IMG/VR virus record: IMGVR_UViG_3300023184_000205
Location: 1-47,612 of that record
Direction: 5' to 3' (one strand)
Source: a virus
DNA length: 47,612 nucleotides
The notes under the pieces were generated by a model. That model searched no databases and was not told the origin of the DNA. It worked only from the letters and a program-made list of their open reading frames with translations. This document shows positions 1 to 44,751 of this stretch, piece by piece (the first letter of the stretch is position 1; every line of letters starts with the position of its first letter). The translations under genes were made by a program, and so were the position numbers.

Positions 1-70
1 CAGCTCTTACATATGTGTCATATGCATTGACTACGAGGTTGCCTACACCAGAGATTTGAGTGGTTGCCAT
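1..70 (-). CDS. Major capsid protein, first 23 codons only (cut by window start)
   Basis: The reverse strand starts with ATG at 70 and reads MATTQISGVGNLVV and onward until the window ends. It is base-for-base identical to the start of the complete capsid gene at 39115..40038. It lies inside the 117-bp exact repeat, so it is probably the same gene seen again where a circular genome closes rather than a second capsid gene. Confidence 0.85.
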   Translation of the reverse strand, partial: MATTQISGVGNLVVNAYDTYVRA

Positions 71-117
71 TTACGGCACCGCCTTTCTGGGTTAGTACCC
101 AGCTTTACCAAGATCTG
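1..117. repeat. 117-bp exact direct repeat, left copy (partner 39969..40085)
   Basis: Bases 1-117 match 39969-40085 without a mismatch, and the first difference is at 118. The repeat holds the capsid start, the 21-nt gap and the last scaffold codons. Identity begins exactly at the window edge and stops abruptly. That is the usual footprint of an assembly-graph overlap at the closure point of a circular or terminally redundant phage genome. Confidence 0.9.
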
Positions 118-562
118 CAAATAACGCCTTCAATGCATCTGGCCCCTTAGTGGCGGCCTCATCCATCTGAGCCTGAATCATCTGTTCACGGTCGGCACTA
201 ATGCCACCATCAATAGTTGCTTGGGCTTTCTTGTAGGTATCTGCAAAACCATCAGGTAAACCTGAGTTTGATTGGTTGGATGGCACACCGAATACATCAC
301 CGTATTCTGCGAGCCATGACGACAACGATTCCTCCGTGAGGTCGATGTCCTGCGGAATGAAAGCCGAAATCTTCGGGTTCACTCCTCGAGCCGTGAGGAC
401 TTCTGAAATAGTCCGGTCTCTTTTATCTTTACGCAAACTTGAAAGCTCTTCCTGAATTTCTTTCAGTTGCTTTTCTTTTGCCTTATTGGCCTTGCGTAGT
501 TGACCGAGAACATCATTCGATTCCGTATCGAAATCATCCTCATCGTCTTCGTAATTGGACAT
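92..562 (-). CDS. Capsid scaffolding protein, allele 1
   Basis: This protein of about 156 residues starts MSNYEDDEDDFD. It has a very acidic N-terminus, a charged coiled-coil stretch (LRKANKAKEKQLKEIQEEL, about residues 22-45) and a Gln/Ala-rich C-terminal helix ending in KAGY. Size, composition and position immediately upstream of the capsid gene are typical of tailed-phage scaffolds, which guide procapsid assembly and then leave. The ATG at 562 is chosen over an upstream in-frame start at 601 because AGGGAG lies 8-9 nt before it and the other allele starts at the same codon. A 21-nt gap separates it from the capsid gene. Function is inferred from context and composition. Confidence 0.75.
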   Translation of the reverse strand: MSNYEDDEDDFDTESNDVLGQLRKANKAKEKQLKEIQEELSSLRKDKRDRTISEVLTARGVNPKISAFIPQDIDLTEESLSSWLAEYGDVFGVPSNQSNSGLPDGFADTYKKAQATIDGGISADREQMIQAQMDEAATKGPDALKALFADLGKAGY

Positions 563-599
563 GTGTCCTACTCCCTTTTCTATGTTAGTCGCTGGCCAC

Positions 600-660
600 A
601 ATGCAATCGGGGAAATGCATCGGCTCCAACTTCCGGTCTTATACTCATCTCAAGTTCCGG
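600..660 (-). promoter_or_regulatory. Conserved scaffold leader: direct repeats, TATA-like box, small hairpin (allele 1)
   Basis: In the reverse-strand leader of the scaffold gene, CCGGAACTTGAG (plus 649-660) is followed by CCGGAAGTTGGAG (plus 624-636), an imperfect direct repeat. Between them is GAGTATAAGA, which holds a possible -10 box. An inverted repeat ATGCA/TGCAT (601-605/616-620) comes next. Positions 601-720 align without gaps to the second allele (15 differences in 120). This may be a promoter with operator-like repeats for scaffold and capsid, but no start site can be proven from sequence. Confidence 0.4.
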
Positions 661-678
661 CGATCCAAGAGACGGAGT

Positions 679-718
679 GGGTGTTCAGGTCTTGAACCTG
701 AATGACTGCCAGTCACCC
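679..718 (-). ncRNA. Covarying three-way-junction RNA element (allele 1)
   Basis: The element lies 6 nt past the LysM-gene stop, at the head of the scaffold leader. Plus-strand helices are GGGT 679-682 with ACCC 715-718; TTCAGG 684-689 with CCTGAA 697-702; GACT 704-707 with AGTC 711-714. Against the second allele there are six stem substitutions, and all occur as three compensated pairs (685/701, 687/699, 706/712). The only other change is in a loop (693). On the transcribed strand the 7-nt loop is TTCAAGA (TTCGAGA in allele 2), resembling a tRNA T-loop. No D-arm or proper acceptor is present, so it is not called a tRNA. Function is unknown; processing site, attenuator or translation control are options. 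Confidence 0.7.
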
Positions 719-724
719 TATTTA

Positions 725-2362
725 TTAAATTAAGCCTGTGGTCTTTGTTCCCAATGCTGAACGACCAATGGCACTTGTGCCACCGAATGCTGCTGCACCG
801 ATTGCTTGGATTCTAGATCCCTTCATCTGTGCCGCTACATCGCCACCAAACTCGGCAGCAATAGCCTCTTGGGCCCCATAACTTTCGCCATAGATCTGTC
901 CTATAGCACCAGTAGTTTGTATATCCTTTTGAACCTTTGAATAGGCTTGGCGTTGTTGACCATAGGTCAAGTTACCTGCACCGTATTGCTGACCAATACC
1001 AGCTTGTTCTTTACTTAATCCTGAAATAAGAGCTGCTGCTGTATTCATATTCTTTCCAGCAATAGACTCAAGTATTGGTTGACCCTTGGTTGGATCAGCA
1101 AAGTATGCTGTCAAAGCTTCATCGCCAATACCGTATAGGTCTTTAAGTTGACCACGGATACCCGGATCTGTTGACTTAACAAAGTCGCTATAGGCTTGCA
1201 TGGTATTAGCAACATCTGTCACATTGTAATTATTCTTTAAGAATGTTTGGAAATCTGTTGTTTGGTCATAGAAACCTTTTGGAGCATTATATGCTTGCAT
1301 TGTCTTCTGGTACTCATCTTCCATACCAACAATGGTCTTCTCATCTAATGCCTTAAATCCATTGGCTAAACGATCTTCATTGACTTTACCAAAGCGATCA
1401 TAGTAAGACTTTGTATTGATAAGTGCTAAATAGAATCCTTCTGATGAGGTAGGGATTTCGTCAAATGCTTTACCAAATCTATCTTTACCTGTGCCATTAT
1501 AGATGTTAACAATTTCTTGTCCAAGCTCGGCCATACCTGCTTGGGCAAAGCGTTCTTTGGTAATTTCAAATGCTGATTTACGCTGGGCATTAAGGGCATC
1601 AGTTTTGGCTTGGTTTTGTTGATCCTGAAGTTGCTTGAGAAGAGCTGCATTGTTGTCAGCCATCATCTTATTTATTTGATCTGTAGTAAGACCGGGTTGG
1701 GATTTAGTTCCTGTAATCTCAGATGTTCCATCTGAATAAAATGTTGTAAATGTTCCATCACCATTGGCAGCAATTCTAGTTACGGTTTTACCTGTTGATG
1801 TTTTGGTTCCAGTAATTTCAGTAGTGCCATCGCTATATGTAACAGTAAAAGTTCCATCACCATTAGGAACGGTTGATACTATTGTTTTTCCAGTTCCGTA
1901 AGCTCCGTTTGGATCAGTTGGAACATATTCTCCCGTTCTGGGATCTAACTTAAACGGAGATGTTGGGTTTACTGTTTCTCCAGAAGAATTTACATATCCT
2001 TCCTTTGTTCTAGTAGAACCTGTCGGAATTGGCCCAACATACATTCCGTTGTTTGGGTTTCCTTCAGTAAGACCAGTTGGAGTTCCAGAAGCAGCGGCAA
2101 CACCGGCAGCAGTAGATGTATCTACAGTTCTTCCGGGGCCTTGATCCCCACCGACAGGAACAGCAGAAGAAGCTGCTGGAGTCTTGGAAGGAATAGCTAC
2201 AGAAGAGCCAGAGAAAATTGCTGTCTGTCCTGCTGCGGCACGAGCCGCAATAGTGGCATTGCGTGGGTCAGCAAGGATTGCATCGACTGTAGTTCCGTTT
2301 GCCTTAGCAATACCGGAAAGCGTATCTCCAGACTTTACTGGAACTTTAGCTGTTTGTGCCAT
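725..2362 (-). CDS. LysM-domain virion protein, allele 1
   Basis: This 545-residue protein has an N-terminal LysM domain (about residues 7-56, with VKSGDTLSGIAKANGTTVDAI), a fold that binds peptidoglycan or chitin-like glycans. A Gly/Ser/Thr-rich linker follows. It includes two tandem units of the type NGDGTFT-YSDGT-EITGTK (about residues 160-225). After a short Gln/Lys helix, a C-terminal domain of about 300 residues is strongly conserved with allele 2 (for example FGKAFDEIPTSSEGFYL and YQKTMQAYNAPKGFYDQTTD). It overlaps the next upstream gene by one base (ATG/TAA). The location among portal-adjacent virion genes suggests an injected or internal protein that contacts the cell wall. That role is inference; the LysM call is firm. 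Confidence 0.75.
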   Translation of the reverse strand: MAQTAKVPVKSGDTLSGIAKANGTTVDAILADPRNATIAARAAAGQTAIFSGSSVAIPSKTPAASSAVPVGGDQGPGRTVDTSTAAGVAAASGTPTGLTEGNPNNGMYVGPIPTGSTRTKEGYVNSSGETVNPTSPFKLDPRTGEYVPTDPNGAYGTGKTIVSTVPNGDGTFTVTYSDGTTEITGTKTSTGKTVTRIAANGDGTFTTFYSDGTSEITGTKSQPGLTTDQINKMMADNNAALLKQLQDQQNQAKTDALNAQRKSAFEITKERFAQAGMAELGQEIVNIYNGTGKDRFGKAFDEIPTSSEGFYLALINTKSYYDRFGKVNEDRLANGFKALDEKTIVGMEDEYQKTMQAYNAPKGFYDQTTDFQTFLKNNYNVTDVANTMQAYSDFVKSTDPGIRGQLKDLYGIGDEALTAYFADPTKGQPILESIAGKNMNTAAALISGLSKEQAGIGQQYGAGNLTYGQQRQAYSKVQKDIQTTGAIGQIYGESYGAQEAIAAEFGGDVAAQMKGSRIQAIGAAAFGGTSAIGRSALGTKTTGLI

Positions 2363-4146
2363 TACCCGATTACTCCGAATCTGCTAAATACATCTAGCGT
2401 TTTTGAATCTAAGTTTTGTCTAGCGTTAGATGTATATTGCCAACGACTATCTTTGTATAGATTTTGTTCAAACTCCCACAACGGTGTTACTGCTGTGCTT
2501 GTCTTATCTCCTACTGTTGTAGTTCTGCCCATCATTGCCTTGCGAATAGTTGGATCCTCAAGATCCAATGACCCTTCAGGAATCTCAAGGATTCTTTGAA
2601 CTGCTCCGATATAAGGACTTGCGATAGATAGAACTGACTCACCATTCATAATACGATCTTTGAATGCTGGAAATAGTTTGACTGCTTCATTGCGAAGATT
2701 CTCATCAATAGCCTCAGTAGAGGTATCTCCTAGATAAGCCATCTGACCAAGGTTTGCAGCAGACTCAGCAGTAAGGCTTAGACCGTATTGCTTATACTTT
2801 GTCTTAACCATTGTGATGTTAGAAGCAATAGCCATCTGGACATCTGGTTGTGCAAGGTATTGTGAGCTGTGCTTTATCTTCTTATCAAAATCTCCAAGGC
2901 TTGTTGCTGCTTTGAATATTGTCTGGAAGTTTTGATCTGAAATCTGGAACTGAGAATTAGATAATTTCAAAGCCTTCTTGTAGGTATCAATAAAATCTGA
3001 AGCAGCAGTTTGAAAATCTGAACCTGCTCGCATGAGCCTTGCTACATCTGGCTTAGTGGTATCTAGCTGATAATCAGAGATAGCCTTTAGGCGAAGATCA
3101 TATGAGACTTCTTCGATTGTCTTTACCTTGCCAAGGATCTGGTCACGGTATGAATCGGTAGTCGCTTGATCCAGTTTAAGACCATTGCCAATAGCTGCTG
3201 CACCAATGAGTGAGTATGTGCGTTGGTTTACATCTTTATACCAAACGGTGTCACGAAGATATGGTGCAACTACTGTATCAAAATCTGCATTCTGTTGAGC
3301 AAAGGTTATCAACTTATCGTAGATAAGAGTTTTATACTTTCCATTTTCTGCTGTCTTAAAGTAATCAAGTAGGAACTTGCTTCCATATGTTCCAAGTGAT
3401 TCTTGTTGTTTGGCTGTAAGGGTTCCGGTTTTGGCAGCTTCGGCATCAGCTTTCTTTTTAGCAGCAGCATCTGTTTTAACTTTAGCTGCTGCAATCTGTT
3501 CTGGAGTTTGTGCTACTTTCCCGGTATCCCCAACCTTGGCACCAGCATCTCCAGCAACTTTTTCTGCAACAACTTTCTTGCCTGTTGCATCCCAAGATCC
3601 AGTAGAAGAAATCCACTTTCCAGCAAGAACATTAAATGTGGCATCTAAAGGAACACCCTTAGGGGGAGTTACCGTAGAAGTCATACCCCCGGGTTGGTCA
3701 GATACATTTCCGCTTGGAGTTCCACCACCGGCAACAGGTGCTTTCTTCGGTAATAACTTTCCAGAGTTATCTACTTCATACTTTCCAGCAGATAAATCTT
3801 TTACTTCTTGATATGCAGTTGTTTGTGCAGAAAGGGTTGAATTGTAACGCTTTGAGTAATATTGAATATCACGCTCTTGTGCTGTAGTGATTCTTCCACC
3901 AGCATCAGTAATATCTTTTACTATCTGTTTGATTCTTACTAGATCATCATCTAGTGAAGTTTGTAAACCCTCAGCATATTTGGTTCGGCTTTGAGCGGTA
4001 AGTTTAATTCTTCTTTCAGCATCGTTAGATGCTCTAAGTTTGTCTGAAGCTGCTTTTGCTATATCTCTTGCAGACTTAGCAGCAGCAGCATTAGCTGCTG
4101 CATCTTTAATAAGTTGACTTACATCTATTGGTTTGTTTTCAGCCAT
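2362..4146 (-). CDS. Putative internal virion protein, allele 1
   Basis: This 594-residue protein of unrecognised family has a low-complexity Ala/Lys-rich N-terminal helix (residues 10-60) and a Pro/Gly/Thr-rich variable middle (about 115-240). Its all-helical C-terminal half ends WEFEQNLYKDSRWQY...FGVIG. The C-terminal half is well conserved with the 565-residue allele at 42263..43960, while the middle is not. It abuts both neighbours with one-base overlaps, so it is translated as part of the portal-to-capsid operon. A structural or ejected role is inferred from context; no catalytic motif was seen. Confidence 0.6.
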   Translation of the reverse strand: MAENKPIDVSQLIKDAAANAAAAKSARDIAKAASDKLRASNDAERRIKLTAQSRTKYAEGLQTSLDDDLVRIKQIVKDITDAGGRITTAQERDIQYYSKRYNSTLSAQTTAYQEVKDLSAGKYEVDNSGKLLPKKAPVAGGGTPSGNVSDQPGGMTSTVTPPKGVPLDATFNVLAGKWISSTGSWDATGKKVVAEKVAGDAGAKVGDTGKVAQTPEQIAAAKVKTDAAAKKKADAEAAKTGTLTAKQQESLGTYGSKFLLDYFKTAENGKYKTLIYDKLITFAQQNADFDTVVAPYLRDTVWYKDVNQRTYSLIGAAAIGNGLKLDQATTDSYRDQILGKVKTIEEVSYDLRLKAISDYQLDTTKPDVARLMRAGSDFQTAASDFIDTYKKALKLSNSQFQISDQNFQTIFKAATSLGDFDKKIKHSSQYLAQPDVQMAIASNITMVKTKYKQYGLSLTAESAANLGQMAYLGDTSTEAIDENLRNEAVKLFPAFKDRIMNGESVLSIASPYIGAVQRILEIPEGSLDLEDPTIRKAMMGRTTTVGDKTSTAVTPLWEFEQNLYKDSRWQYTSNARQNLDSKTLDVFSRFGVIG

Positions 4147-4955
4147 TATTGTCCAGCCGCCAATCTAGCAATGCCATCTGCATAAGAGTTAAATTTAATG
4201 TTAGTTGCCTCTGTATTAAGTGCCTCATCAGATCGAATAGCCTGTTCCACTACTTCTCCTCTACCACCCAATGTTGCACCACCGGTTGAAGATACATTAT
4301 ATGAATTAGTACCAGTCTGTGTCTGAGTTGTTATTGAAGGGTTTGACTTTTCATACTTTGTGATAGCAGCAGTTAGATAGTTCATATCTGACTCGGATGG
4401 ATCTCTGCCAAGTAAAGCTCTTGCTCCGGCTCGTGCAGCATTCCGTGCAGTTGCTGGATCAGATAGGTTTACAGAACGAGTTGTAGTTGTGGTTCCTGCT
4501 CCACCACCACCAGTAGCAATACCTTTGACAATTTCTTGCCAAGTAGCACCAGCAGCATTGGCATCTTTAAGTAAAGAAATCATTGCTTGGTTATCTGCAT
4601 CAATCCAGTTGGCTGTTTGATAGTTAGACTTTGATAAGTAATTGCCTTGCACTAGCAATGCTTTGATAGCATTTTGATCTGGAAGTGTTGCAAATTGAGG
4701 TTCTGTAGAACGGATAATTCCAATAGTCTTTAGCGTTGGATCATAAAGTGCTGTTTGAAATGCACCAGTAATCGTAGTTTTCTTACCATTAACATCAGTA
4801 AATGTCTGTCCGGGTCTCCATACATTTGTTCCTTTTGCTGTAAAGGAAGAACCAGTTGATCCTGCGGTTGGCAAAGAGGCAACGATGGCATCTTGACGAG
4901 CCTTAAGTTCGGCTGCTAGTCGAGCTTTCTTTTGTGCTTCTGTCTCTGTTGCCAT
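4146..4955 (-). CDS. Putative virion protein with LGRDP helical motif, allele 1
   Basis: This 269-residue protein has a charged N-terminal helix (TETEAQKKARLAAELKARQ), a Gly/Ser-rich section, then ARALLGRDPSESDMNYLTAAI followed by NPSITTQTQTGTNS. The same motif pair occurs in allele 2 (AKLGRDPRDAEYNQLL, NPSITTQTQTAPG). I associate this pattern with proteins lying next to large virion proteins in actinobacterial phages, but I know no function. One-base overlaps on both sides indicate translational coupling. Confidence 0.55.
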   Translation of the reverse strand: MATETEAQKKARLAAELKARQDAIVASLPTAGSTGSSFTAKGTNVWRPGQTFTDVNGKKTTITGAFQTALYDPTLKTIGIIRSTEPQFATLPDQNAIKALLVQGNYLSKSNYQTANWIDADNQAMISLLKDANAAGATWQEIVKGIATGGGGAGTTTTTRSVNLSDPATARNAARAGARALLGRDPSESDMNYLTAAITKYEKSNPSITTQTQTGTNSYNVSSTGGATLGGRGEVVEQAIRSDEALNTEATNIKFNSYADGIARLAAGQ

Positions 4956-7900
4956 TATTGGTTTCCTGTTTCTGTTGCAAATATACGCCAGTACATAACA
5001 CTAAACTCTGGATAAGCAGCAATCACTTGATATGCTGCATTATCTAGCCATTCTGCTATAGGTTTAACTGAAACACCTGTAAGGGTTTTGTATCCAGATT
5101 GTGCTGCTGCATCTGTTGCTGCCTTGCGATACTGCAAGAATTCTGCAAGACCTTTACCTGATTCAGTAGCTGCAAACTTATCGTTACTTAGAGCTGCTGT
5201 TACTTCTTTGAGCAATGTCTCACGAGGAACACCTGCTGATCGATAATCAGGTTGACCACCAAAATCACCATCTAATGTTTCCTTGCGACTTTGATACATA
5301 GCATGGGCATCTTTAGGATCTGTACCCTGCATGATTGCAGTTGCTTCATCTGATTGAAGCTTTGCTTTACGGGCTGAGTAAACATAACGGGCTGCTTCAG
5401 CCATCATGTCAGCAGGGGATAACTTGAAACGCTGTCCTGTTTGCTCTTGCCATTTAGCAAACTCTTGTGAGTATTGACCACCGGGGAAGAACAAGGAGAA
5501 TGCATTCTTATATTGAAGTGCATCATCTCTATTGTTGAGATAGAAACTCCATGCTTCGCTAGTTGGTTGAACTCCACCGCGAGATCCAGATACCAAAGCA
5601 AAGAGGGCTGAATCGCCATACTTCTCTGCCCACTTAGCAATGGATACTGCGTAGTTATCTGGGTTATTTGCACGAATCTGTAAAAAGTCATTCATCATCA
5701 ATGCCTGAACATGGAAGTCACCAGTCTTATCCTTAGCAAGGATATTCGGTGCAATAGCACCGGGTGATAAGTTGGCAAAGATTCCACGCCATAGGGCAAG
5801 AACTCGGTTGAGTTTTCCTGAGTCTTCAAGAAGTTTCTGTTGGTTAGGGCCATCAAGTGGGAACTCACCATACTTACCAGTAGTTGCAAGGTAAGTCATA
5901 ATTGGTCGAAGTGTAGAAAGGTTCTTCGCCTCGTATGAGTTAACACCTAAACCGTAAAGAAGTCTTTGGGCCCAAGCTGGGGTAAATGATTCTACTATTC
6001 CAGTCTTTGAGTCTGGGGCCCCAAATGGATAGATGATGTTACGAAGTTGATCCGCAATCCAACCATTTTGATTCTGAACAACTTTACCAACAGTAAGTTG
6101 CATACCCGGCCCAACACCCGGTAACAATTCGTTACTGAATGCAAGGTTCAAAGATGGAATTGAAAGTGATGTAGGCATACCGGGAACCTTTTCACCAGCA
6201 ACAGTTCCAAGCATTCCACCAAGAATATCTCCAACAAATGGCAAGATCATACGAGGATCTCCATATGTTGGATCCTTATAGATAAACCCTTGACCCGGAT
6301 CATTCCAGTTGTCATTAGTCCACTCGTAGATAACGCCAGTCTCTGGATGAGTTAAAAACTCAAAAGCATTAGTTGCCTTATAGGTACGGGCTTTGCCTTG
6401 AAGCTTAAAGGTATTAGTTACATCCTTAGCAACTAGCTTGCCCCATACATCCATGGTGTTAGCAAATGCTCCAATGAATGGTGCAACCATACGCAATGCA
6501 ACGGCATACTGCCTCTGTCGCATAGCATCGTAATAAAGTTTCTGAATCTTATCTGCTGCTAGATTACTTGCAACACCATGCATATCATCAACAGATAAAC
6601 CACGATCATCTAATGTCTTAATTGCTTCACGCATCTTAGATAACGCTGGATTAGTAAAGTTTGCAGGAACTCCAAAGATCTTAGTTCCGGAAAGTTCTTT
6701 CTCTGCAATAGGAAGAATCTTTTCAGCTTCTGCCTTGGACATAAGGTTCATGTGTTCACCAACTGAGTTCCAATATTGTTGGCGATACTCTGGGCCAAGT
6801 GCCATACGCTTTTCAACAGTTGCTGAGAAACGGAAAAACTTTGCTGCTGCTTTATCCCATGTGCCTTTTAATGCACCTGCTGTTTCGTATGATTCGGCAG
6901 GAAGCTTGAGCTGACCAATAGCATTATCCACATTGACAGCATCTGCAACACGATAATCTTTAAGGATACGAGATAGCCATACATCTTTAGCAGTATTGCC
7001 CTTAGGGTCAAAACCATTCTTACCCTTAAGTCTTTGTCCTTTGATGTCAACCATATGCTTTCCAGCAATGAAGTCACGGATCTCTTGGCGACCACCAGCA
7101 AGGTTATCAACACCTTTAACTATGATGTCCATATATTGAGATACTGCATCTTTAGCAACATTGAGATCTTCTGCATTAAAAATTGCATTGTGTTGTTGTG
7201 AGATGCCACCAAGTTGCTTGCGTAGCAAGTTACCTTGTTCTGTCTCAAACATAAAATCTGTAATGATTTGTTTTTCATTGTTAGCCAATGTCAAACCTTG
7301 TGCTGCTTTGTTAGCAAGGAATACTTTAGCTTCTGGGAACCAAGGCTTTAGTTTACCTGCGGCATCTCTGGATCCACCGTTAATTCCACCAGCCACTAAA
7401 CGGGCTATAGTAGATTCACGATATTGCAAGATAGCACCAGCCCATGCACGGTTAAATTGTTTCTCGTCTTTGCCAATGAATCGCATTCCAGTAGGAAGCA
7501 TTCTTTGACCTTGACCAACACCCATGCCATAGCTGCGAGACATCATAACTGCATACTTATCTGCATCAGATAAAGCTGCACCCTTAAAGCCATCAACATC
7601 TACTTGCTTGACTAGATCATCAAAGCGATTACCAAATACTGTGTTATCAAATCTACTCATACGAGTTAGATACTTAGCCATTGCATTACCCTCTGGGTTA
7701 CCCATTGACATAGCAATGAATCTCAAAGGATGATTGAATAAAGTTGTTGATCCGGCAAAGAATGAACGAACCTGCATATCCATAATGTTTCGCTCAATAT
7801 AGGATAGGCGACCTACAAGAACAGACTGCTTGAAGAATGTATCAAATAGTTCTGTGCTTACGGTTCTAAATTGTTGGGCCCCTTCGGATCTTGACAAAAT

Positions 7901-10852
7901 GTTTCTTGTCTTACCTGTGAGCTGTCGCATGGCATTGGTGTCAGGCCACTTGATATAATTTGCAAGTTGTGAGTCAAGTAGTGGATCCAACTCTGAGACC
8001 GTGATCTTCTTTCCTGCGCTAATAACCGATTGAACATCGGTTCCGTTACCAGCGACTTGAGCAAGAAATCTACGGTTTGCATCTTGTTCTTTCTTAAATA
8101 CTCTTGCTGCACTCTCAAGCATTTTGCCTTGTTCTTCTGAAAGTTTAGGCATTTGTTCTTTGACTACAGATGTAATGGTGTCAATAAAGACATTGAATCG
8201 TTCAGTAGATGTCTCTGACTTCATCATGGCTTTGACTGCACTTGTACGAAGAGCCTCTGAAGCACCAATGAACGGAAGAACATCGTGCATTTGACGGACT
8301 AACTTATCTACATCATCAAGATGGATAAGATCTTTAGTGGGTGCCATGCGTGTGAAAATTGAATCATTTACTTTAGTAAGACCCTTTTCAACAAAAGAGT
8401 TAAGAAGGAATTTTTCTTTTACTGCTCGAGCAAGTTGCAAACTGTTAGGGTTATAGAGTCCTGACTCAATCTTCAATGCACGAGACTGTGCAGATAAACC
8501 TAAACGAGTTCCGGTTCCGAGGTCTAAACCAATCTGACCTGCAAGGATCTGTAGAACTTCTTTCTCTGTTCCGGCAGCAGCTAGTTCCTTGGCAACAGCA
8601 ACAGTTACCTTGCCATTCATTGCTTTCCATAGATCATAGTATTGATCTGGTGCATAGTGAGTAGCAATCATCTTAGATACATTGCGACCTAATGGGCCAA
8701 AGAATGCATCTGATGCTTTCTGATAATCAAGTATCTGCTTGCCAGCAATAGTGGTTAGACCAAAGTGTGATTCAGTTGCTAACTGACGGCGACCCATTGC
8801 TTCTTCTAGTGCAGACTTTGCTTCTGCTTGAGTAGCTGCATGATCTTTAATAAACTTAAGATTTGACTGATAGATAGAATCATACTTATCAAATTCTTTT
8901 TGTGCTGCTGAAACAAGATTACCCTTTTCAGCAATTTGCTTATCTAGTTCAGCAATCTGTTCCATGACAGTTAGGCGACCAGCAGCAGCACCTTGTGCCA
9001 TGCCTCCGACCTGTTGGGTAATTGCACCCTCAGTAGTTCCGGCTTGCTTTCCAAAGTCAAGAATATCTGGAGAGTTAATTGCATCTGCTTTGAAGCGACC
9101 AAAGTCGCTAAGCTTTGCTGCAAATGGATCTACAGTCTGTGCAAAGTAAGCGTATCCACCACCACCAACACCACGAGTAGCACCTACCTGATCGAAACCT
9201 TGAATGCCAGACTTTTGGTAAGCTTGATAAAGTTTATCAACAATACCAAGTTTTGCTGCTGCATCAACTACTTCTCCATGCAATGCACCGGGTGTATCAA
9301 TTACATCTAAAACCTTTTGAACCTTCTCATCAGCAACGCCAGCCTTAGATGCAATATCGATAAGGTTAGATCCAAGTTCATTACCAAGGCGTGTAGCCTG
9401 TGGGGAATCTCCAGCTTTAACAAGTGCTGACCAAGTTACCAATCGTGGCTTTTGTTTTGCAGCAACACGAACAACTAACTCATCAGTTCCTTGAAGACCT
9501 TGAACTGCTGGGCGATTACCCTTCTTAAGAGCAGCCTCTTCAGTTGTATGAATAAGTCCGGGAGCAAGTTTCTCTTGTTGTGCAAGTGTTTCGGAAGTCT
9601 TTACGACTTCATCAAAACCTTTGGCATCTAAGATTCCTTGAACTTCTGCTGCTCTACCAGCAGAATTAAGTTCAAGACGATGAGCCATAAGGTCTTCACC
9701 TTTACGCTTTTTCCCAACTAATTGAGCAGATGTATCTCCCTCTTTCTTGAGGGCTGCAAAAAGTGTGTCTCTACGCTGGCTTAGTTCACCATACTGTGCA
9801 TCAATCAAATCAGCTTGAGTCTTAGCATTATGTGTTAATTCATATAGGCGATCCATCTCAGGCATGAGTTCTTCAACATCTGCTGCGTGTTTAGCTATGT
9901 CGCCTTCAAGCATTGCAATATCACCAGATGCAACTCTGGCATCAGCCATAGTTGCTTTAAGTTGACCAGCAATATCTTCACCTTCACGCAAAACATTTTT
10001 TACTGGTTGCGCTTTTGCTACTGCTGCGGCTGCTGCCGCTTTAGGGCCAAAGCGTAATGAAATTCCAGCTTTACTAAGTTTGACTAAACCAAAACCGGGA
10101 ACATAAGTCAAAGGATCTAATGCAATGTTCATTACAAAACCTGCTGTTGCTTGGAATGTACGAGCAGCCTTAGATTCAGGATCTTCAAATAATGCTTGAG
10201 TCATGCCAGAGGCATAAGTCCAAGGGCCGCCATACTTCATCTTTGGCCCACCAGCAATTTGTGCTTTCAGTAATGCTTTACCTACAGCAGAATTAGCATC
10301 TGTTCCAAGAAAGCCCGATCCAACATCTACTTTACCTGTTGTAAGCAATGATTTAATTGCTTGTCCTGATTGGGTTTCATCCCAAGTATTAAAAAGATTA
10401 GGGGCCCTACCTGCTGCTATCTGACGGATAGATCCTTCGAGTAACTCGAATGGAGTAGTAAGTGCCATAAATGCTGTACGAGTAAGAGGAGCAAGGAAGT
10501 CAACAGGGGAACCTTTTGAAACCTTATTGGCTTCTTTAAGTTTAGTTGCTGCTTGTTTAGCGGCTTCACGCTGAACATCTACAGATGATTGTGCATCAAG
10601 GGTTGCTGCGGCAGAAGAAGTTTGTTGATTAGGGCTGGCTCCAGCTTTGCTTAATGCAAGTACAGTTCCTGCACCAGCATTAGGGTATGTCTTAGCCATG
10701 GTTGCAACTTGAGATGCAAATGCCGGGGTAAGCCACTTGTTATTCTCAGTCTTACGCCATTGCTCATAAGCAGCAGTTCCTTCTTGAGGAATGCTTGCAA
10801 TGTCAGAACCTAAAGATGTACCAGCAAGAGTGCCGCCAATTTTTCCTGCCAT
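4955..10852 (-). CDS. Giant 1965-residue virion protein, allele 1
   Basis: This is the largest gene in the window. Predicted features are long helical and coiled-coil stretches (about residues 285-380 and 640-700), an Ala-rich run (about 275), and a C-terminal third very similar to allele 2 (for example GFIYKDPTYGDPRM and FFPGGQYSQEFAKWQ). No lysozyme, polymerase or protease motif was identified. Its size and position between portal and scaffold resemble the internal or ejected proteins of podoviruses, or a fused injection machine. It is the natural candidate if the phage lacks a classical tape measure. It starts with ATG overlapping the previous stop (TAATG). The role is inferred. Confidence 0.6.
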   Translation of the reverse strand: MAGKIGGTLAGTSLGSDIASIPQEGTAAYEQWRKTENNKWLTPAFASQVATMAKTYPNAGAGTVLALSKAGASPNQQTSSAAATLDAQSSVDVQREAAKQAATKLKEANKVSKGSPVDFLAPLTRTAFMALTTPFELLEGSIRQIAAGRAPNLFNTWDETQSGQAIKSLLTTGKVDVGSGFLGTDANSAVGKALLKAQIAGGPKMKYGGPWTYASGMTQALFEDPESKAARTFQATAGFVMNIALDPLTYVPGFGLVKLSKAGISLRFGPKAAAAAAVAKAQPVKNVLREGEDIAGQLKATMADARVASGDIAMLEGDIAKHAADVEELMPEMDRLYELTHNAKTQADLIDAQYGELSQRRDTLFAALKKEGDTSAQLVGKKRKGEDLMAHRLELNSAGRAAEVQGILDAKGFDEVVKTSETLAQQEKLAPGLIHTTEEAALKKGNRPAVQGLQGTDELVVRVAAKQKPRLVTWSALVKAGDSPQATRLGNELGSNLIDIASKAGVADEKVQKVLDVIDTPGALHGEVVDAAAKLGIVDKLYQAYQKSGIQGFDQVGATRGVGGGGYAYFAQTVDPFAAKLSDFGRFKADAINSPDILDFGKQAGTTEGAITQQVGGMAQGAAAGRLTVMEQIAELDKQIAEKGNLVSAAQKEFDKYDSIYQSNLKFIKDHAATQAEAKSALEEAMGRRQLATESHFGLTTIAGKQILDYQKASDAFFGPLGRNVSKMIATHYAPDQYYDLWKAMNGKVTVAVAKELAAAGTEKEVLQILAGQIGLDLGTGTRLGLSAQSRALKIESGLYNPNSLQLARAVKEKFLLNSFVEKGLTKVNDSIFTRMAPTKDLIHLDDVDKLVRQMHDVLPFIGASEALRTSAVKAMMKSETSTERFNVFIDTITSVVKEQMPKLSEEQGKMLESAARVFKKEQDANRRFLAQVAGNGTDVQSVISAGKKITVSELDPLLDSQLANYIKWPDTNAMRQLTGKTRNILSRSEGAQQFRTVSTELFDTFFKQSVLVGRLSYIERNIMDMQVRSFFAGSTTLFNHPLRFIAMSMGNPEGNAMAKYLTRMSRFDNTVFGNRFDDLVKQVDVDGFKGAALSDADKYAVMMSRSYGMGVGQGQRMLPTGMRFIGKDEKQFNRAWAGAILQYRESTIARLVAGGINGGSRDAAGKLKPWFPEAKVFLANKAAQGLTLANNEKQIITDFMFETEQGNLLRKQLGGISQQHNAIFNAEDLNVAKDAVSQYMDIIVKGVDNLAGGRQEIRDFIAGKHMVDIKGQRLKGKNGFDPKGNTAKDVWLSRILKDYRVADAVNVDNAIGQLKLPAESYETAGALKGTWDKAAAKFFRFSATVEKRMALGPEYRQQYWNSVGEHMNLMSKAEAEKILPIAEKELSGTKIFGVPANFTNPALSKMREAIKTLDDRGLSVDDMHGVASNLAADKIQKLYYDAMRQRQYAVALRMVAPFIGAFANTMDVWGKLVAKDVTNTFKLQGKARTYKATNAFEFLTHPETGVIYEWTNDNWNDPGQGFIYKDPTYGDPRMILPFVGDILGGMLGTVAGEKVPGMPTSLSIPSLNLAFSNELLPGVGPGMQLTVGKVVQNQNGWIADQLRNIIYPFGAPDSKTGIVESFTPAWAQRLLYGLGVNSYEAKNLSTLRPIMTYLATTGKYGEFPLDGPNQQKLLEDSGKLNRVLALWRGIFANLSPGAIAPNILAKDKTGDFHVQALMMNDFLQIRANNPDNYAVSIAKWAEKYGDSALFALVSGSRGGVQPTSEAWSFYLNNRDDALQYKNAFSLFFPGGQYSQEFAKWQEQTGQRFKLSPADMMAEAARYVYSARKAKLQSDEATAIMQGTDPKDAHAMYQSRKETLDGDFGGQPDYRSAGVPRETLLKEVTAALSNDKFAATESGKGLAEFLQYRKAATDAAAQSGYKTLTGVSVKPIAEWLDNAAYQVIAAYPEFSVMYWRIFATETGNQ

Positions 10853-39114: not shown

Positions 39115-40038
39115 TTAGAGAGCTGAACCGCCTGTTTCCAAACGAACAACTGATGCATCACGGAAGATGCCCCAGCCGCCGAAGTATTTCCAGCCAAGGG
39201 CTGACTTACGGCGAAGGATGTCAATCTGAGGAGCTACGACTGTTTGCACATCGTAGACTGAAGCCTCAAGAAGAGCTTCCTTACCAACTGCGATTGCCTT
39301 GTAGACAGAAGCAGATGATGCACCTTCAATTGTTGAAGGTACACGAGATGTCTGAACAACTTGGAAGCCTTCAAGAACACCAATGGTGCCTGTCAATAGG
39401 TTTCCAACATTTTCAGTTGTGTACTTGTGGATGTCCACAAATCCGCCTGAACCAGTCTCTGCCCGTAGGTCATAAGCTTGGCGTGGGTGGATGAAGATGG
39501 TATAGAGATCTCCAACGCGAGGTTGTGAGTTAGCCTCTAGAAGTGCTGTCTGTGCCTTGCGAAGCATAGCTGTCGATAGGACATCTGTTGCTGTCAAGGT
39601 AGCAGTTGTTGTACGGCTTCCGCCGTACTTAACTACAGTTCCGCCGATTAGAGCAGAAGCGACAAGCTGATCCAATGTATCTGCTGCGTTGTAAGCAATC
39701 GCATCACCGATCATTGTGTCGATAGAAGAGAATGTGGCCATATTGACCTTCTCTGTCTGCTCAACAGCATTACCGTATTCAGTAACTGTGACTGAAACCT
39801 GTGATGGGTTTGCTAATGCAACAGGAGTTACATCAGATGTTTCTGTTAAAGCTGTGGTTGCTGCTGTTAGGTTTGCATACAATGCGAACTTAAGAGTAGT
39901 TCCCGGGTTGGTGAGAGCGACTGGTCGTAGGTCTGCGACTGAACGCATGACAGGTAGGGAGCGGAGTGCAGCTCTTACATATGTGTCATATGCATTGACT
40001 ACGAGGTTGCCTACACCAGAGATTTGAGTGGTTGCCAT
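39115..40038 (-). CDS. Major capsid protein, N4-gp56-like
   Basis: 307 residues. Features I associate with the N4-gp56-type capsid family are the start ATTQISGVGNLVVNAYDTYVRAALRSLPVMRSVAD, VSVTVTEYGNAVEQTEKVNMATFSSID, an exposed central region (PRVGDLYTIFIHPRQAYDLRAET) and the conserved C-terminal RRKSALGWKYFGGWGIFRDASVVRLETG. It would form the HK97-fold shell. The neighbouring scaffold and portal support this. The first 70 nt repeat exactly at the window start. Confidence 0.88.
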   Translation of the reverse strand: MATTQISGVGNLVVNAYDTYVRAALRSLPVMRSVADLRPVALTNPGTTLKFALYANLTAATTALTETSDVTPVALANPSQVSVTVTEYGNAVEQTEKVNMATFSSIDTMIGDAIAYNAADTLDQLVASALIGGTVVKYGGSRTTTATLTATDVLSTAMLRKAQTALLEANSQPRVGDLYTIFIHPRQAYDLRAETGSGGFVDIHKYTTENVGNLLTGTIGVLEGFQVVQTSRVPSTIEGASSASVYKAIAVGKEALLEASVYDVQTVVAPQIDILRRKSALGWKYFGGWGIFRDASVVRLETGGSAL

Positions 40039-40085
40039 TTACGGCACCGCCTTTCTGGGTTAGTACCCAGCTTTACCAAGATCTG
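39969..40085. repeat. 117-bp exact direct repeat, right copy (partner 1..117)
   Basis: Identical to 1..117. Closing the sequence on this repeat gives a unit of 39,968 bp. After 40085 the sequence follows a diverged allele of the same genes. Confidence 0.9.
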
Positions 40086-40533
40086 AAAATAACTGCTTCA
40101 ATGCTTCAGGCCCCTTTGCAGCGGCCTCATCCATCTGGGCTTGAATCATCTGTTCGCGATCAGCACTAATGCCGCCATCTACAGTTGCTTGAGCCTTTTT
40201 GTAATTATCTACGAAACCTTCTGGTATCGCTGAGTTTGATTGGTTTGGTTGTGACACACCGAATACATCTCCGTATTCAGTAAGCCATGACGACAACGAT
40301 TCCTCCGTGAGGTCGATGTCCTGTGGAATAAAAGCCGAAATCTTCGGATTCACTCCTCGAGCTGTAAGGACTTCTGAGATAGTTCTCTCTCGTTTTTCTT
40401 TACGCAAATTTGAAAGCTCTTCCTGAATTTCCTTCAGTTGCTTCTCTTTTGCCTTATTGGCCTTGCGTAGTTGTCCGAGAACATCGTTCGAATCAAGTTC
40501 GAAGTCATCCTCTTCCAGTTCGTAATTGGACAT
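40060..40533 (-). CDS. Capsid scaffolding protein, allele 2
   Basis: 157 residues, colinear with 92..562. The acidic N-terminus differs most (MSNYELEEDDFELDSND), while the coiled coil and the segment TISEVLTARGVNPKISAFIPQDIDLTEESLSSWL are nearly unchanged. The region before DNYKKAQAT varies. AGGGAG lies before the ATG. This is the copy directly upstream of the complete capsid gene in this window. Confidence 0.75.
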   Translation of the reverse strand: MSNYELEEDDFELDSNDVLGQLRKANKAKEKQLKEIQEELSNLRKEKRERTISEVLTARGVNPKISAFIPQDIDLTEESLSSWLTEYGDVFGVSQPNQSNSAIPEGFVDNYKKAQATVDGGISADREQMIQAQMDEAAAKGPEALKQLFSDLGKAGY

Positions 40534-40569
40534 TTGTCCTACTCCCTTTTCATGTTAGTCGCTGGCCAC

Positions 40570-40630
40570 AATGCAATCGGGGAAATGCATTGGCTCCAAC
40601 TTCCGGGTTTATACTCATCTCAAGTTCCGG
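40570..40630 (-). promoter_or_regulatory. Conserved scaffold leader, allele 2
   Basis: Same arrangement as 600..660: direct repeats at plus 40619-40630 and 40594-40606, TATAAA-like box between them, and inverted repeat AATGCA/TGCATT (40570-40575/40586-40591), here with one more pair than in allele 1. Confidence 0.4.
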
Positions 40631-40648
40631 CATTTCTAGAGATGGAGT

Positions 40649-40688
40649 GGGTGTCCGGGTCTCGAACCCGGATGATTGCCAATCACCC
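40649..40688 (-). ncRNA. Covarying three-way-junction RNA element (allele 2)
   Basis: Plus-strand helices are GGGT 40649-40652 with ACCC 40685-40688; TCCGGG 40654-40659 with CCCGGA 40667-40672; GATT 40674-40677 with AATC 40681-40684. It is the partner of 679..718 (constant offset 39970), and every stem difference is compensated. The transcribed-strand loop is TTCGAGA. It starts 6 nt past the LysM-gene stop. Confidence 0.7.
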
Positions 40689-40694
40689 TATTAC

Positions 40695-42263
40695 TTAAAC
40701 TGTTTTAGTTCTTAGTGCCTTAGATCCGATGCCACTTGTGCCACCGAATGCTGCTTGACCTGTTGCCTTGATTCGTGCTGCTTGTGCTTGTGCTTGGACA
40801 TCTCCACCGAACTCGGCAGCGATTGCTTCCTTGGCTCCAAAGTTTTCACCATAGATAGCAGCAAGGTTTCCAGTTGTCTGGAGTTCACGCTGAACCTGTG
40901 AATACTTCTGGCGTTGTGATCCATAACCAAGAGATCCTGCACCATAAGCCTGAGCCATATTAGCTTCTTCTGCTGTTAGACCTTCGATAAGAGCTGCTGC
41001 TGTATTCATGTTCTTGCCAGCAATCTGCTCAAGGATTCCCTGACCCTTTGCTGGATCAATCATATATGCAGTAAGGGCTTCGTCACCGATACCGTATAAA
41101 TCTTTAAGTTGTTTACGAACATTGGAATCTGTGCCTGTAGTTACAAAATCACGATATGCCTGAATAATATTTGCTACATCGACATTGGTGAGATTGTTCT
41201 TTAGGAAAGATTGGAAGTCTGTTGTCTGATCGTAGAAGCCTGTTGGCATATTGTATGAAGTCAATACCTTCTGGTATTCATCTTCCATTCCAACGATTGT
41301 CTTCTCATCTAGTGCCTTATAGCCCTGCTTCAAACGAGCTTCGTTAACACTACCGAATCGATCATAGTAAGACTTGGTGTTAATCAACTGAAGGTAGAAA
41401 CCTTCTGAAGTTGTAGGGATTTCATCAAATGCCTTGCCAAAACGATCTGTGCCTTTGCCAGCAAAGATTGCAGCAATGTCATCTCCAACCTCTTTAATAC
41501 CCATCTGGGTAAAGCGTTCCCGGATAACATCGAATGCTGACTTACGCTGGGCTGCCACTTGCTCTGCCTTAGCAGTCTCAAGTGCCTTCTGCTGTGCAGC
41601 AAGCATTTTTTGGAATTCTGCATTTTGATTAGCAATAGCAGATTGAATAAGTTTATTTACATCATCTGCTGAAAGTCCTGCTACTTGTTCTGGTGCAGGA
41701 ACTTGATCTGTAGTTCCATCATCATATTCAGTAATCTGAATACGGTTGGCACCGGATCCTGAGAAATAAGTACGAACTACTTTTTTGCCAGTAGGATTTG
41801 GGGTTCCAGTAGTTTCAGTAGTTCCGTCATCATATGTGATTGTTACTGTTCCGTCTTTATTGGTTACACGAGAAACTTCTTTTTTACCAGTTGTTCCTCC
41901 AGTATTACCACCAGTATTACCACCAGTTGAACCACCTGTGCTTCCGCCTGTAGACCCACCAGTTCCAGATGCTTTAGCAATGCCTTCAAGTGTTGTTGTA
42001 TTTACAGTTCCAGCATTAGTTATTGGATTAGATGATGTTCCAAGTCCAACACCTGCACCTGTAGTTGTTCCACCATAAGGATTAGTTGCTGTCTGTGGTG
42101 ATGTAATTGTTACTTTTGTTCCGCTAAATAGAACTGTTTGACCTGCTGCTGCTCGAGCTGCAAGCGTTGGGTTATCGGCAAGGATCTGGGCAACAGTAGT
42201 GCCATTGGCCTTTGCAATACCGGAAAGGGTATCTCCGGACTTAGCCGTTACTTTTTCTGCCAT
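40695..42263 (-). CDS. LysM-domain virion protein, allele 2
   Basis: 522 residues. The LysM domain (about 5-53, AKSGDTLSGIAKANGTTVAQI) and C-terminal domain match allele 1 closely. The linker differs. It has five to six GGSTGG/GGNTGG units (about residues 105-130) and only one clear DGTVTITYDDGTTETTGT-type unit, followed by a diverged one (IQITEYDDGTTDQ). This points to rapid repeat turnover between strains while both ends stay fixed. Confidence 0.75.
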   Translation of the reverse strand: MAEKVTAKSGDTLSGIAKANGTTVAQILADNPTLAARAAAGQTVLFSGTKVTITSPQTATNPYGGTTTGAGVGLGTSSNPITNAGTVNTTTLEGIAKASGTGGSTGGSTGGSTGGNTGGNTGGTTGKKEVSRVTNKDGTVTITYDDGTTETTGTPNPTGKKVVRTYFSGSGANRIQITEYDDGTTDQVPAPEQVAGLSADDVNKLIQSAIANQNAEFQKMLAAQQKALETAKAEQVAAQRKSAFDVIRERFTQMGIKEVGDDIAAIFAGKGTDRFGKAFDEIPTTSEGFYLQLINTKSYYDRFGSVNEARLKQGYKALDEKTIVGMEDEYQKVLTSYNMPTGFYDQTTDFQSFLKNNLTNVDVANIIQAYRDFVTTGTDSNVRKQLKDLYGIGDEALTAYMIDPAKGQGILEQIAGKNMNTAAALIEGLTAEEANMAQAYGAGSLGYGSQRQKYSQVQRELQTTGNLAAIYGENFGAKEAIAAEFGGDVQAQAQAARIKATGQAAFGGTSGIGSKALRTKTV

Positions 42264-43960
42264 TATGGAATCACTCCGAATCTCGATCCGACATCAACTA
42301 AGATGCTGTCGGCTTTAGCTCTTGCATTGGCTGTGTATTGCCAACGACTGTCTTTGTATAGGTCTTGCTCGAACTGCCACAATGGAGTGACTGTTGACGA
42401 TGTTTTGTCTCCGACAGTTGTTGTTGAACCAATCATTGCTTTACGAACTGTTGGATCCTCAAGATCCAATGAACCCTCTGGAACCTCGAGGATACGAGAG
42501 ATTGCACCGATGTAAGGGCTTGCAATAGATAATGGAGACTCTCCATTGAGGATACGATCACGGAATGCTGGGAACAACTTAACCGCTTCTTGGCGAAGGT
42601 TCTCATCAATCTGTTCGTTGGATGTATCTCCAAGAAAAACATTCTTTGCAAGGTTATCTGCTGCTGATGCAGTAAGTGCCAAGCCAAACTGACGATACTT
42701 GGTAGTAACCATAATCTTGTTGGCGTTAATCTGTTGCTGGACTTTAGGCTGAGATAGATACTGGTCAGTCCGGCGAAGCTTCTTCTCGAAATCGCTGATA
42801 TTAGATGAACTGATAAGAAGTGTCTGGAATTGCTTATCATCTATCTTAAAGGCAGATGATGCGATTTCAAGGTTCTTACGATAGATCTCGATGTAGTCAG
42901 CAGCAGCCTGAGCAAAAGTATTTCCTGCACGGATAGAGTTAGCAACATCTGGCTTAACTGTATCCAACTGGAACTGAGCAATAGTCTTTAGACCAATGTC
43001 ATACTTGATCTCATCCATGCTCTTGACTTTGGCAAGGTATTGATCTCGGTAAGTATCTTTAGTTGCCTGATCTAACTTAAGACCATTGGCAAGTTCGGCT
43101 GCACCAATAAGTGCAAAAGTTCTCTGGTTAACATCTTTAGCCCAAGCAGTTCCTGAAAGGTATGCCTCGACATTGGCAGCAGATGAATTCTCTCGTGCCA
43201 TGGTAACAAGCTTGTTATAGATGTCTGGGTAACTAGCCTTGAAGTAATCAATAAGATACTTGCTGCCGTATTCACCAAGCTTTGCTTGCTGTTCTGGTGT
43301 CAAGGCATTTGGATCTACAGCAGTTTTTGCTTTAGGTTTTGCTTGAGGAACATTTCCAATTTTGTCTTTTCCAGCATTGTTAACAACAGGATTTGCACCT
43401 GCTGCTTGTGCAGCAGTCTGAGGGTTTGCACCTGCTTTTGCCTGATCTGCTGTTGAAACTACTGCTGCTGATGTTGTTGATTTTACAACAGTAGTTGTAG
43501 CAGTTGTTGCGGTTGTTGATGCTGTAGTTGCTGTAGTCTCTGGTTTAGTTCCAATAGTTACTTGACCAGTTTTTGTATCCAACTTAGCAGTATTCTTTGT
43601 AAGACCAGTCACTTCTTTTAGAAGAGTATTCTGTTGTTCTACTGCTTGGTTGTAAAGTTTTTCTAAACGCTTAAGTTCTCTTTCATCACCCGGTGATGAA
43701 GTATTAGATGCTATGTTTCTTACTATGCGATTGATTCCAAATAGGCTATCTGCAATAGATTGCTCAAGTGATTGGATACGATCATTCTTTTGACCAACTA
43801 CAAACTTAACCGCTTGATCGTATTGGTTTGCTGCCTTTCGGGCAGCATTGGCTTTAGCAGCAGCTTCTGACTCTGCCTTAGCCTTAGCGGCTCTTGCTTT
43901 CTCGGCTTCGAGAAGTGCATTGATGTCAATAGTGCCTTTAGGCTTTACTGTCTCTGCCAT
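42263..43960 (-). CDS. Putative internal virion protein, allele 2
   Basis: 565 residues, colinear with 2362..4146. The Ala/Lys-rich N-terminal helix and a long Thr/Ala/Val low-complexity part (about residues 140-200) are variable. From LGEYGSKYLIDYFKA onward it matches allele 1, including EGSLDLEDPTVRKAMIGSTTTVGDK and FGVIP at the end. Overlaps with neighbours are retained. Confidence 0.6.
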   Translation of the reverse strand: MAETVKPKGTIDINALLEAEKARAAKAKAESEAAAKANAARKAANQYDQAVKFVVGQKNDRIQSLEQSIADSLFGINRIVRNIASNTSSPGDERELKRLEKLYNQAVEQQNTLLKEVTGLTKNTAKLDTKTGQVTIGTKPETTATTASTTATTATTTVVKSTTSAAVVSTADQAKAGANPQTAAQAAGANPVVNNAGKDKIGNVPQAKPKAKTAVDPNALTPEQQAKLGEYGSKYLIDYFKASYPDIYNKLVTMARENSSAANVEAYLSGTAWAKDVNQRTFALIGAAELANGLKLDQATKDTYRDQYLAKVKSMDEIKYDIGLKTIAQFQLDTVKPDVANSIRAGNTFAQAAADYIEIYRKNLEIASSAFKIDDKQFQTLLISSSNISDFEKKLRRTDQYLSQPKVQQQINANKIMVTTKYRQFGLALTASAADNLAKNVFLGDTSNEQIDENLRQEAVKLFPAFRDRILNGESPLSIASPYIGAISRILEVPEGSLDLEDPTVRKAMIGSTTTVGDKTSSTVTPLWQFEQDLYKDSRWQYTANARAKADSILVDVGSRFGVIP

Positions 43961-44751
43961 TATCGGACACCTGCAATCTTCGCTATAACATCGCCGTATG
44001 AATTAAGAGTCTTGTTGACTGCTTCTGTTTCTAACTCTGGGTTGGCCATAATTGCATTTTCAACTACTTGACCCTTACCAACCATCGATAGGCCTCCAGT
44101 TGTTGTAGTTGAGTATTGACCCGGTGCTGTCTGTGTCTGTGTAGTGATTGAAGGGTTAGCCTTCTCAGCAGATGTAAGAGTTTGAAGCAGTTGATTGTAT
44201 TCAGCATCACGAGGATCACGACCAAGTTTTGCACGAAGTGCATTCTGAACGATTGCTTGTGCTTCTTCTTTGGTTGAGATGCTTGAGACTCTCTGAGTTG
44301 TTGTTCTTGGTTCTCCACCACCAGATCCAATGGCTGCTAACTTCTCTTGCCATGTTCGACCACCATCAGCATTGGCTTCACCAAGAAGTTTCTTAAACGC
44401 TTCTGTGTCAGCCTTGCCCCAATATGCAGTCTGGAAATCAGACTTCGCAAGTTGTCCACCTTGAATCATAAGAGCTTTAATTTGATTCTGATCTGATAAA
44501 GCCTTTAGGTTTTCTCCAAGAATCTGCCAAACCTGTGCATCAGAAACTTGATATAGGGCAGAATAAATCTTGCCAGTTACATCTGTTTTCTTACCAGTCT
44601 TAGGATCTGTAAAGACAACACCCGGGCGGAATACACCAGTTCCCTGTGCAGGATATGAATTGGCACCACCTACTGAAGGTGCAGCATAAGGATTAGTTCC
44701 TGTTGAAACTTCCTTGGAATCATCGATTCCATTCTTGTTTAGATCAACCAT
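43960..44751 (-). CDS. Putative virion protein with LGRDP helical motif, allele 2
   Basis: 263 residues, colinear with 4146..4955. The N-terminus is replaced: it begins VDLNKNGIDDSKEVSTGTNP, which resembles a dockerin-like or EF-hand-type calcium loop (DLNKNGIDD), absent from allele 1. The motif LRAKLGRDPRDAEYN and NPSITTQTQT are conserved. Confidence 0.55.
   Translation of the reverse strand: MVDLNKNGIDDSKEVSTGTNPYAAPSVGGANSYPAQGTGVFRPGVVFTDPKTGKKTDVTGKIYSALYQVSDAQVWQILGENLKALSDQNQIKALMIQGGQLAKSDFQTAYWGKADTEAFKKLLGEANADGGRTWQEKLAAIGSGGGEPRTTTQRVSSISTKEEAQAIVQNALRAKLGRDPRDAEYNQLLQTLTSAEKANPSITTQTQTAPGQYSTTTTGGLSMVGKGQVVENAIMANPELETEAVNKTLNSYGDVIAKIAGVR

Follow-up and report, generated by a model that had tools for sequence, protein, structure and literature searches.

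The locus and its two copies

The window, a viral contig of 47,612 nt analysed at its full length (IMG/VR record IMGVR_UViG_3300023184_000205), carries the same 40-nt intergenic element twice (Table 1). On the mRNA strand, which is the minus strand, a stop codon is followed by 6 nt, the element, a CRUCUC/GAGAUG hairpin, the leader and the scaffold-like gene. The original prediction had placed a structured RNA ahead of scaffold and capsid genes, and its position was right (phrog_7813, then the capsid gene). The sequence is GGGUGACUGGCAGUCAUUCAGGUUCAAGACCUGAACACCC in copy 1 (718 to 679) and GGGUGAUUGGCAAUCAUCCGGGUUCGAGACCCGGACACCC in copy 2 (40688 to 40649). Comparison of the copies confirmed seven differences between them, six of which fall in three compensated stem pairs (C-G/T-A, T-A/C-G and A-T/G-C) and one in a loop.

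Positions 1-1588 and 39969-41552 of the window are 80% identical. The contig as a whole (1-10852 against 39970-47570) comprises one ~40-kb phage genome and 7.6 kb in which a second strain covers the same region again, with ~80% identity in the first 1.6 kb; this duplication reflects either an assembly of mixed strains or a terminal repeat that has diverged. As the contig ends overlap in content, the two element copies represent one locus in two strains. The z values for their folds are -1.5 and -2.5. Two copies and one fold are by themselves weak evidence for a conserved RNA; the relatives lift the case far above chance.

Table 1. Features of the element locus in the window (coordinates of the whole stretch).
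Feature	Position	Strand	Remarks
Mini tRNA-like element, copy 1 (strain A), 40 nt	679..718	-	CM R1 match 675-721, 61.6 bits, E 5.7e-14
Mini tRNA-like element, copy 2 (strain B), 40 nt	40649..40688	-	CM R1 match 40645-40691, 67.9 bits, E 1.3e-15
Acceptor-like stem, 5' strand GGGUG	714..718	-	pairs with 679-683; five of five pairs covary (46 sequences)
Acceptor-like stem, 3' strand CACCC	679..683	-	
Linker, 11 nt, ACUGGCAGUCA	703..713	-	D-loop-like GG 709-710; pair 712-706; pseudoknot bases 705, 704
T-arm, 6-bp stem 697-702/684-689, T-loop UUCAAGA 690-696	684..702	-	690 pairs with 705, 691 pairs with 704
R73-C74 equivalent, A678 and C677	677..678	-	copy 2: 40648, 40647
Upstream gene, phrog_8424	725..2362	-	copy 2: 40695-42263; stop codon 6 nt before element
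Downstream gene, phrog_7813, scaffold-like	92..562	-	copy 2: 40060-40533; directly precedes major capsid gene
Major capsid protein, phrog_1357	39115..40038	-	
Conserved leader, element to scaffold start codon, 115 nt	563..677	-	copy 2: 114 nt
Downstream hairpin CGUCUC...GAGAUG	646..674	-	both copies and orthologues
Downstream hairpin, copy 2, CAUCUC...GAGAUG	40616-40644		

Structure of the element

Members of the family share a 5-6-bp acceptor stem, a 10-11-nt linker and a 6-bp T-arm with a UUCRA loop, followed by R73-C74. In the 46-sequence alignment, covariation was found in 11 of 14 pairs; the acceptor (5 bp) and T-stem (6 bp) together gave 9/11 covarying pairs in 46 gapless sequences, and the T-stem alone 4/6. 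The prediction of a structured mRNA-strand element with true covariation was thus borne out, as was the likeness of its larger loop to a tRNA T-loop. The linker GG is invariant (46/46, alignment A2), and its pairing with the T-loop is not provable from invariant bases. It lies where G18-G19 of a D-loop would be, which the earlier statement that no D-arm exists had overlooked. The three-way junction with a 4-bp hairpin was rejected, the A-U pair of that hairpin being broken in 35/46 copies and the U-A pair in 25/46; a single real pair of it remains (C-G/T-A, in 45/46 copies), and its other bases belong to a pseudoknot with the T-loop.

The structural descriptor used to collect the 46 sequences required both stems; hence, the unbiased evidence consists of anchored windows, unselected contacts and pattern counts in IMG/VR. 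Among 350 non-redundant windows chosen solely by GGCA and TTCRA at a fixed spacing, 276 had both stems perfect (6/6 and 5/5), and the distribution was bimodal. Two contacts that had never been selected for were almost always Watson-Crick: that between linker positions 2 and 8 in 285/287 cases and that between linker position 9 and the final T-loop base in 283/287, each with four pair types. Exact-pattern counts for the pseudoknot pair in IMG/VR gave at least 120 A-U, 38 U-A, no A.A and three U.U; as the A-U pattern allowed only G at one loop position where the others allowed A or G, the A-U count is conservative. Linker 10 and T-loop position 6 form C-G in type 1 copies. The contacts of linker 9 and 10 indicate that a 2-bp pseudoknot joins the linker to the T-loop. 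Type 2 copies have an TGGUCGNAG linker, a UUCGACU loop and usually a 12-bp stack, and their pseudoknot bases would read A-U and G-C.

The acceptor and T-stem stack measures 11 bp in 216 of 272 cores and 12 bp in 6+6 layouts, and G1-C72 is present in 209/216 elements. In the anchored windows, R73 and C74 were each found in 285/287 and C75 in only 6/287. Position -1 is dominated by A, with U-1 rare (10/287), and avoidance of -1/73 pairing was not found in these windows (14/287 against 13.5 expected from the marginals). Sequence patterns were used to gather part of the loci, which biases base frequencies for the whole family towards type 1.

As judged by these sequences, the element is a reduced tRNA, with an acceptor-like stem, a D-loop-like GG, a T-arm and R73-C74 and without the anticodon arm. 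With canonical tRNA (RF00005) it has in common the UUCRA loop of the T-arm, which was itself used to anchor the search, the coaxial acceptor and T stack, the D-loop-like GG, R73 and C74. It differs in having a 10-11-nt linker in place of the anticodon arm, a 5-6-bp acceptor and the additional pseudoknot. The window element does not reach the RF00005 threshold, and ARAGORN calls no tRNA there. A real tRNA or an attachment-site remnant was rejected on the lack of an anticodon arm and of a tRNA call.

Distribution of the family

With the window region as blastn query against cultured phages, the element alone was matched, at intergenic sites of Mycobacterium phages Konstantine and Damien. Shorter queries found matches in many Streptomyces and Mycobacterium phages, and a consensus query gave 931 places in 157 records, the weakest of which are partial matches to true tRNA genes. 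Konstantine carries divergent copies that have the T-arm and the linker GG in common. With the structural descriptor, 5-11 copies were found per ~5-8-kb early region of cultured phages, as compared with one in 905 kb of shuffled sequence. A covariance model built on 46 copies detects between 6 and 15 elements in a cultured phage genome, a single one in each genome of the group to which the window phage belongs, and none in phiC31. Thus, the element is not private to the window phage and recurs as an intergenic cassette in cultured actinophages. The early terminators of phiC31 were considered as the same thing and rejected, since phiC31 has no copy.

Many copies occur in cultured Mycobacterium, Streptomyces and Gordonia phages, and single copies in a Streptococcus pneumoniae prophage and in Bacteroidota and Gemmatimonadota contigs. 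In cellular genomes the element is rare and clustered, a pattern expected of prophages; a host housekeeping RNA was rejected on finding it in only 4/117 other Actinomycetes genomes and 0/118 in the class of Hymenobacter. Plasmid matches were 20-30-nt chance matches. The densest array, 10-11 elements in ~3 kb, lies on an Actinocatenispora rupis contig (L229 7207-7956; G021:C29:7207-9818). At L222 6880-6973, ARAGORN makes a false tRNA-Ala call, the 3' half of which is one element; such calls may mask the family in annotations. Type-2-like elements with an acceptor of 7-8 bp were seen on AT-rich contigs (L285, L288, L298, L299 and L305) and are possibly a further subtype or terminator hybrids.

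Rfam 15 gave no match to the window element at its gathering thresholds, in agreement with the original view that no RNA family of this form had been described. A description of the family was not found in the papers searched in open-licence PMC; as the literature coverage was confined to that collection, an earlier description elsewhere is possible.

Placement relative to genes

In eight annotated phages, all but one of 56 elements lie in gaps between annotated genes and none is antisense; the medians are 9.5 nt past the upstream stop codon and 44.5 nt ahead of the next start. Gordonia phage Aleemily has gene blocks on both strands, and the strand of each element matches that of its genes. 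On the 3' side, two or three free bases are followed by a private hairpin, a ribosome-binding site and the start codon. These downstream hairpins have a mean z of -2.7 in cultured phages, and 84% are in the best 10% of shuffles.

The tRNA clusters of related phages

In its major capsid protein, the window phage shares 35% identity with Streptomyces podoviruses of the Beephvirinae type, and the gene order is common to both (phrog_13037, 6654, 8424, gap, 7813, capsid). In FlowerPower, Abafar and Manuel, the same gap between the same two genes carries 14-21 annotated, full tRNA genes, as compared with one putative 40-nt mimic in the window. The clusters, located at L413 5293-7364, L414 6115-7360 and L415 5494-7359 between phrog_8424 and a scaffold-like gene, are placed as if they separated two late transcripts. 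From the end of the last tRNA of the cluster to the scaffold gene there are 114-115 nt, as there are from the end of the window element. No sequence homology was found between the 115-nt leader of the window and the Beephvirinae leaders; since the leaders do not align, the equal spacing could be a coincidence.

A closer relative (L073, IMGVR_UViG_3300047548_000307) has an 83-nt tRNA-shaped RNA at 4289-4371 that replaces the mini element in the same syntenic place. This RNA scores 22.4 bits against the Rfam tRNA model (threshold 29), is not called by ARAGORN and has a 7-bp acceptor that includes G3-U70.

RNase P determinants and the 3' end

Bacterial RNase P recognises the stacked elbow of its tRNA substrate and gauges ~12 bp of T and acceptor stem; it also stacks on the G1-C72 pair and base-pairs with R73-C74-C75 (PMC11143913). 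The elements retain the T-loop of a putative elbow, a stack of 11-12 bp, G1-C72 and R73-C74, and do not retain C75; as C75 is avoided, the RCC contact with RNase P RNA is incomplete. In sampled host tRNA genes without an encoded CCA from three actinobacterial genomes (L416-L445), C74 occurs in 32/32 and C75 in 7/32, and the 3' end of the element, R73-C74 and then a non-C base, resembles the ends of such genes. RNase Z is blocked by CC(A), and by avoiding C75 the element could remain accessible to this enzyme.

Discussion

The elements have a conserved fold with a tertiary contact, a strict position and strand, and a host-like R73-C74 end. Since they carry all of these RNase P features but C75 and have no anticodon arm, we infer cutting by RNase P. 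The reading that we prefer, with a probability of roughly 0.6, is that the element is a minimal tRNA mimic that would be cut by host RNase P, perhaps together with RNase Z, and would punctuate polycistronic phage mRNA. The RNA would fold as a tRNA elbow in cis, between the genes of the message, and host RNase P would cut at its 5' side, before G1; RNase Z might cut at the 3' side, and sequence alone does not separate the two enzymes. The cuts would split the transcript into single-gene messages, and the downstream message would start with a folded 5' structure (the mini-tRNA and/or the following hairpin) that would give protection. In the window, the cut would separate the mRNA for tail and internal proteins from the scaffold-capsid mRNA, and processing of the whole tRNA cluster would do the same separating job in the cultured relatives. 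The 11-bp rather than 12-bp stack of the common type, the rarity of the preferred U-1 and the avoidance of C75 count against RNase P.

The fixed location, past the stop codon and ahead of the ribosome-binding site, and the hairpin that follows would also suit an uncut insulator or stability element, the fold and hairpin of which would block ribosomes or exonucleases (for example in 3'-5' decay, or RNase J acting from the 5' end) and allow independent translation of each gene. We consider this unlikely: a plain hairpin would be enough for the purpose, leaving the invariant GG, the UUCRA loop, the pseudoknot and C74 unexplained, as well as the tRNA cluster that relatives have in this gap. Less probable still is a docking site for another tRNA-binding protein (TruB, TrmA, EF-Tu or a phage protein) or an antitermination RNA for RNA polymerase, acting on transcription or translation. 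TruB-type enzymes read the UUCRA of the T-loop, and early operons carry multiple copies; yet antitermination needs no copy before almost every small gene at a fixed spacing from stop and start, and the conservation of R73-C74 suggests enzymes that recognise the acceptor end.

Relatives with tRNA clusters in the gap, and the tRNA-shaped remnant in L073, bring to mind a degenerate tRNA gene left over from such a cluster. Such a remnant would not retain 11/14 covarying pairs and the pseudoknot across unrelated siphoviruses in 6-15 copies, which makes this very improbable and contradicts it as a full account; the window copy may still have originated in that way. Inverted repeats in intergenic DNA could finally represent a DNA-level site (operator or attachment site) or a transcription terminator, and Rho-independent terminators without U-tails are known in actinophages. 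This reading, already disfavoured, is hardly credible: the elements are strictly co-directional with genes on both strands, the covariation includes non-helical tertiary contacts, and there is no U-run. Moreover, little room for a promoter is left between the element and the start codon, so that termination would silence the next gene.

Parallels to the proposed RNase P cutting of a minimal tRNA mimic exist in other systems. phi80 M3 RNA, P1/P7 C4 antisense RNA and T4 gene 32 mRNA are phage RNAs cut by host RNase P (PMC11143913). They differ in being single RNAs. To our knowledge, no intergenic repeated cassette is among the phage substrates of RNase P. mascRNA/menRNA (RF01684) are likewise tRNA-like RNAs inside a longer transcript and are cut by RNase P and RNase Z, but they are ~56 nt long and lie at the 3' ends of mammalian lncRNAs, at a single locus. 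The Rfam 15 scan gave no RF01684 match in the window; this family was the best sub-threshold shape for one type 2 copy (18.6 bits, E 1, threshold 42.5). In the tRNA punctuation of mitochondrial mRNA and in plant mitochondrial t-elements, tRNA or tRNA-like units between genes release mRNAs; these are organellar and mostly full tRNAs, whereas the phage elements would be reduced mimics.

More tentatively, and at somewhat less than even odds, unrelated phages of Actinomycetota, and apparently of Bacteroidota, Gemmatimonadota and Bacillota, may have mini-tRNA punctuation in common, in which RNase P/Z would excise the 40 nt and convert an operon into separate mRNAs; the freed mini-tRNAs may accumulate and occupy the host tRNA machinery. 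The element would represent a widespread RNA family in well-studied phages such as Joe, phiHau3, Konstantine and Send513, and phage operons would be cut into mRNAs by an easily tested mechanism that depends on essential, hard-to-lose host enzymes. It would also define a minimal natural tRNA mimic of ~40 nt with a new T-loop pseudoknot, and would provide a small processing part for actinobacterial genetics.
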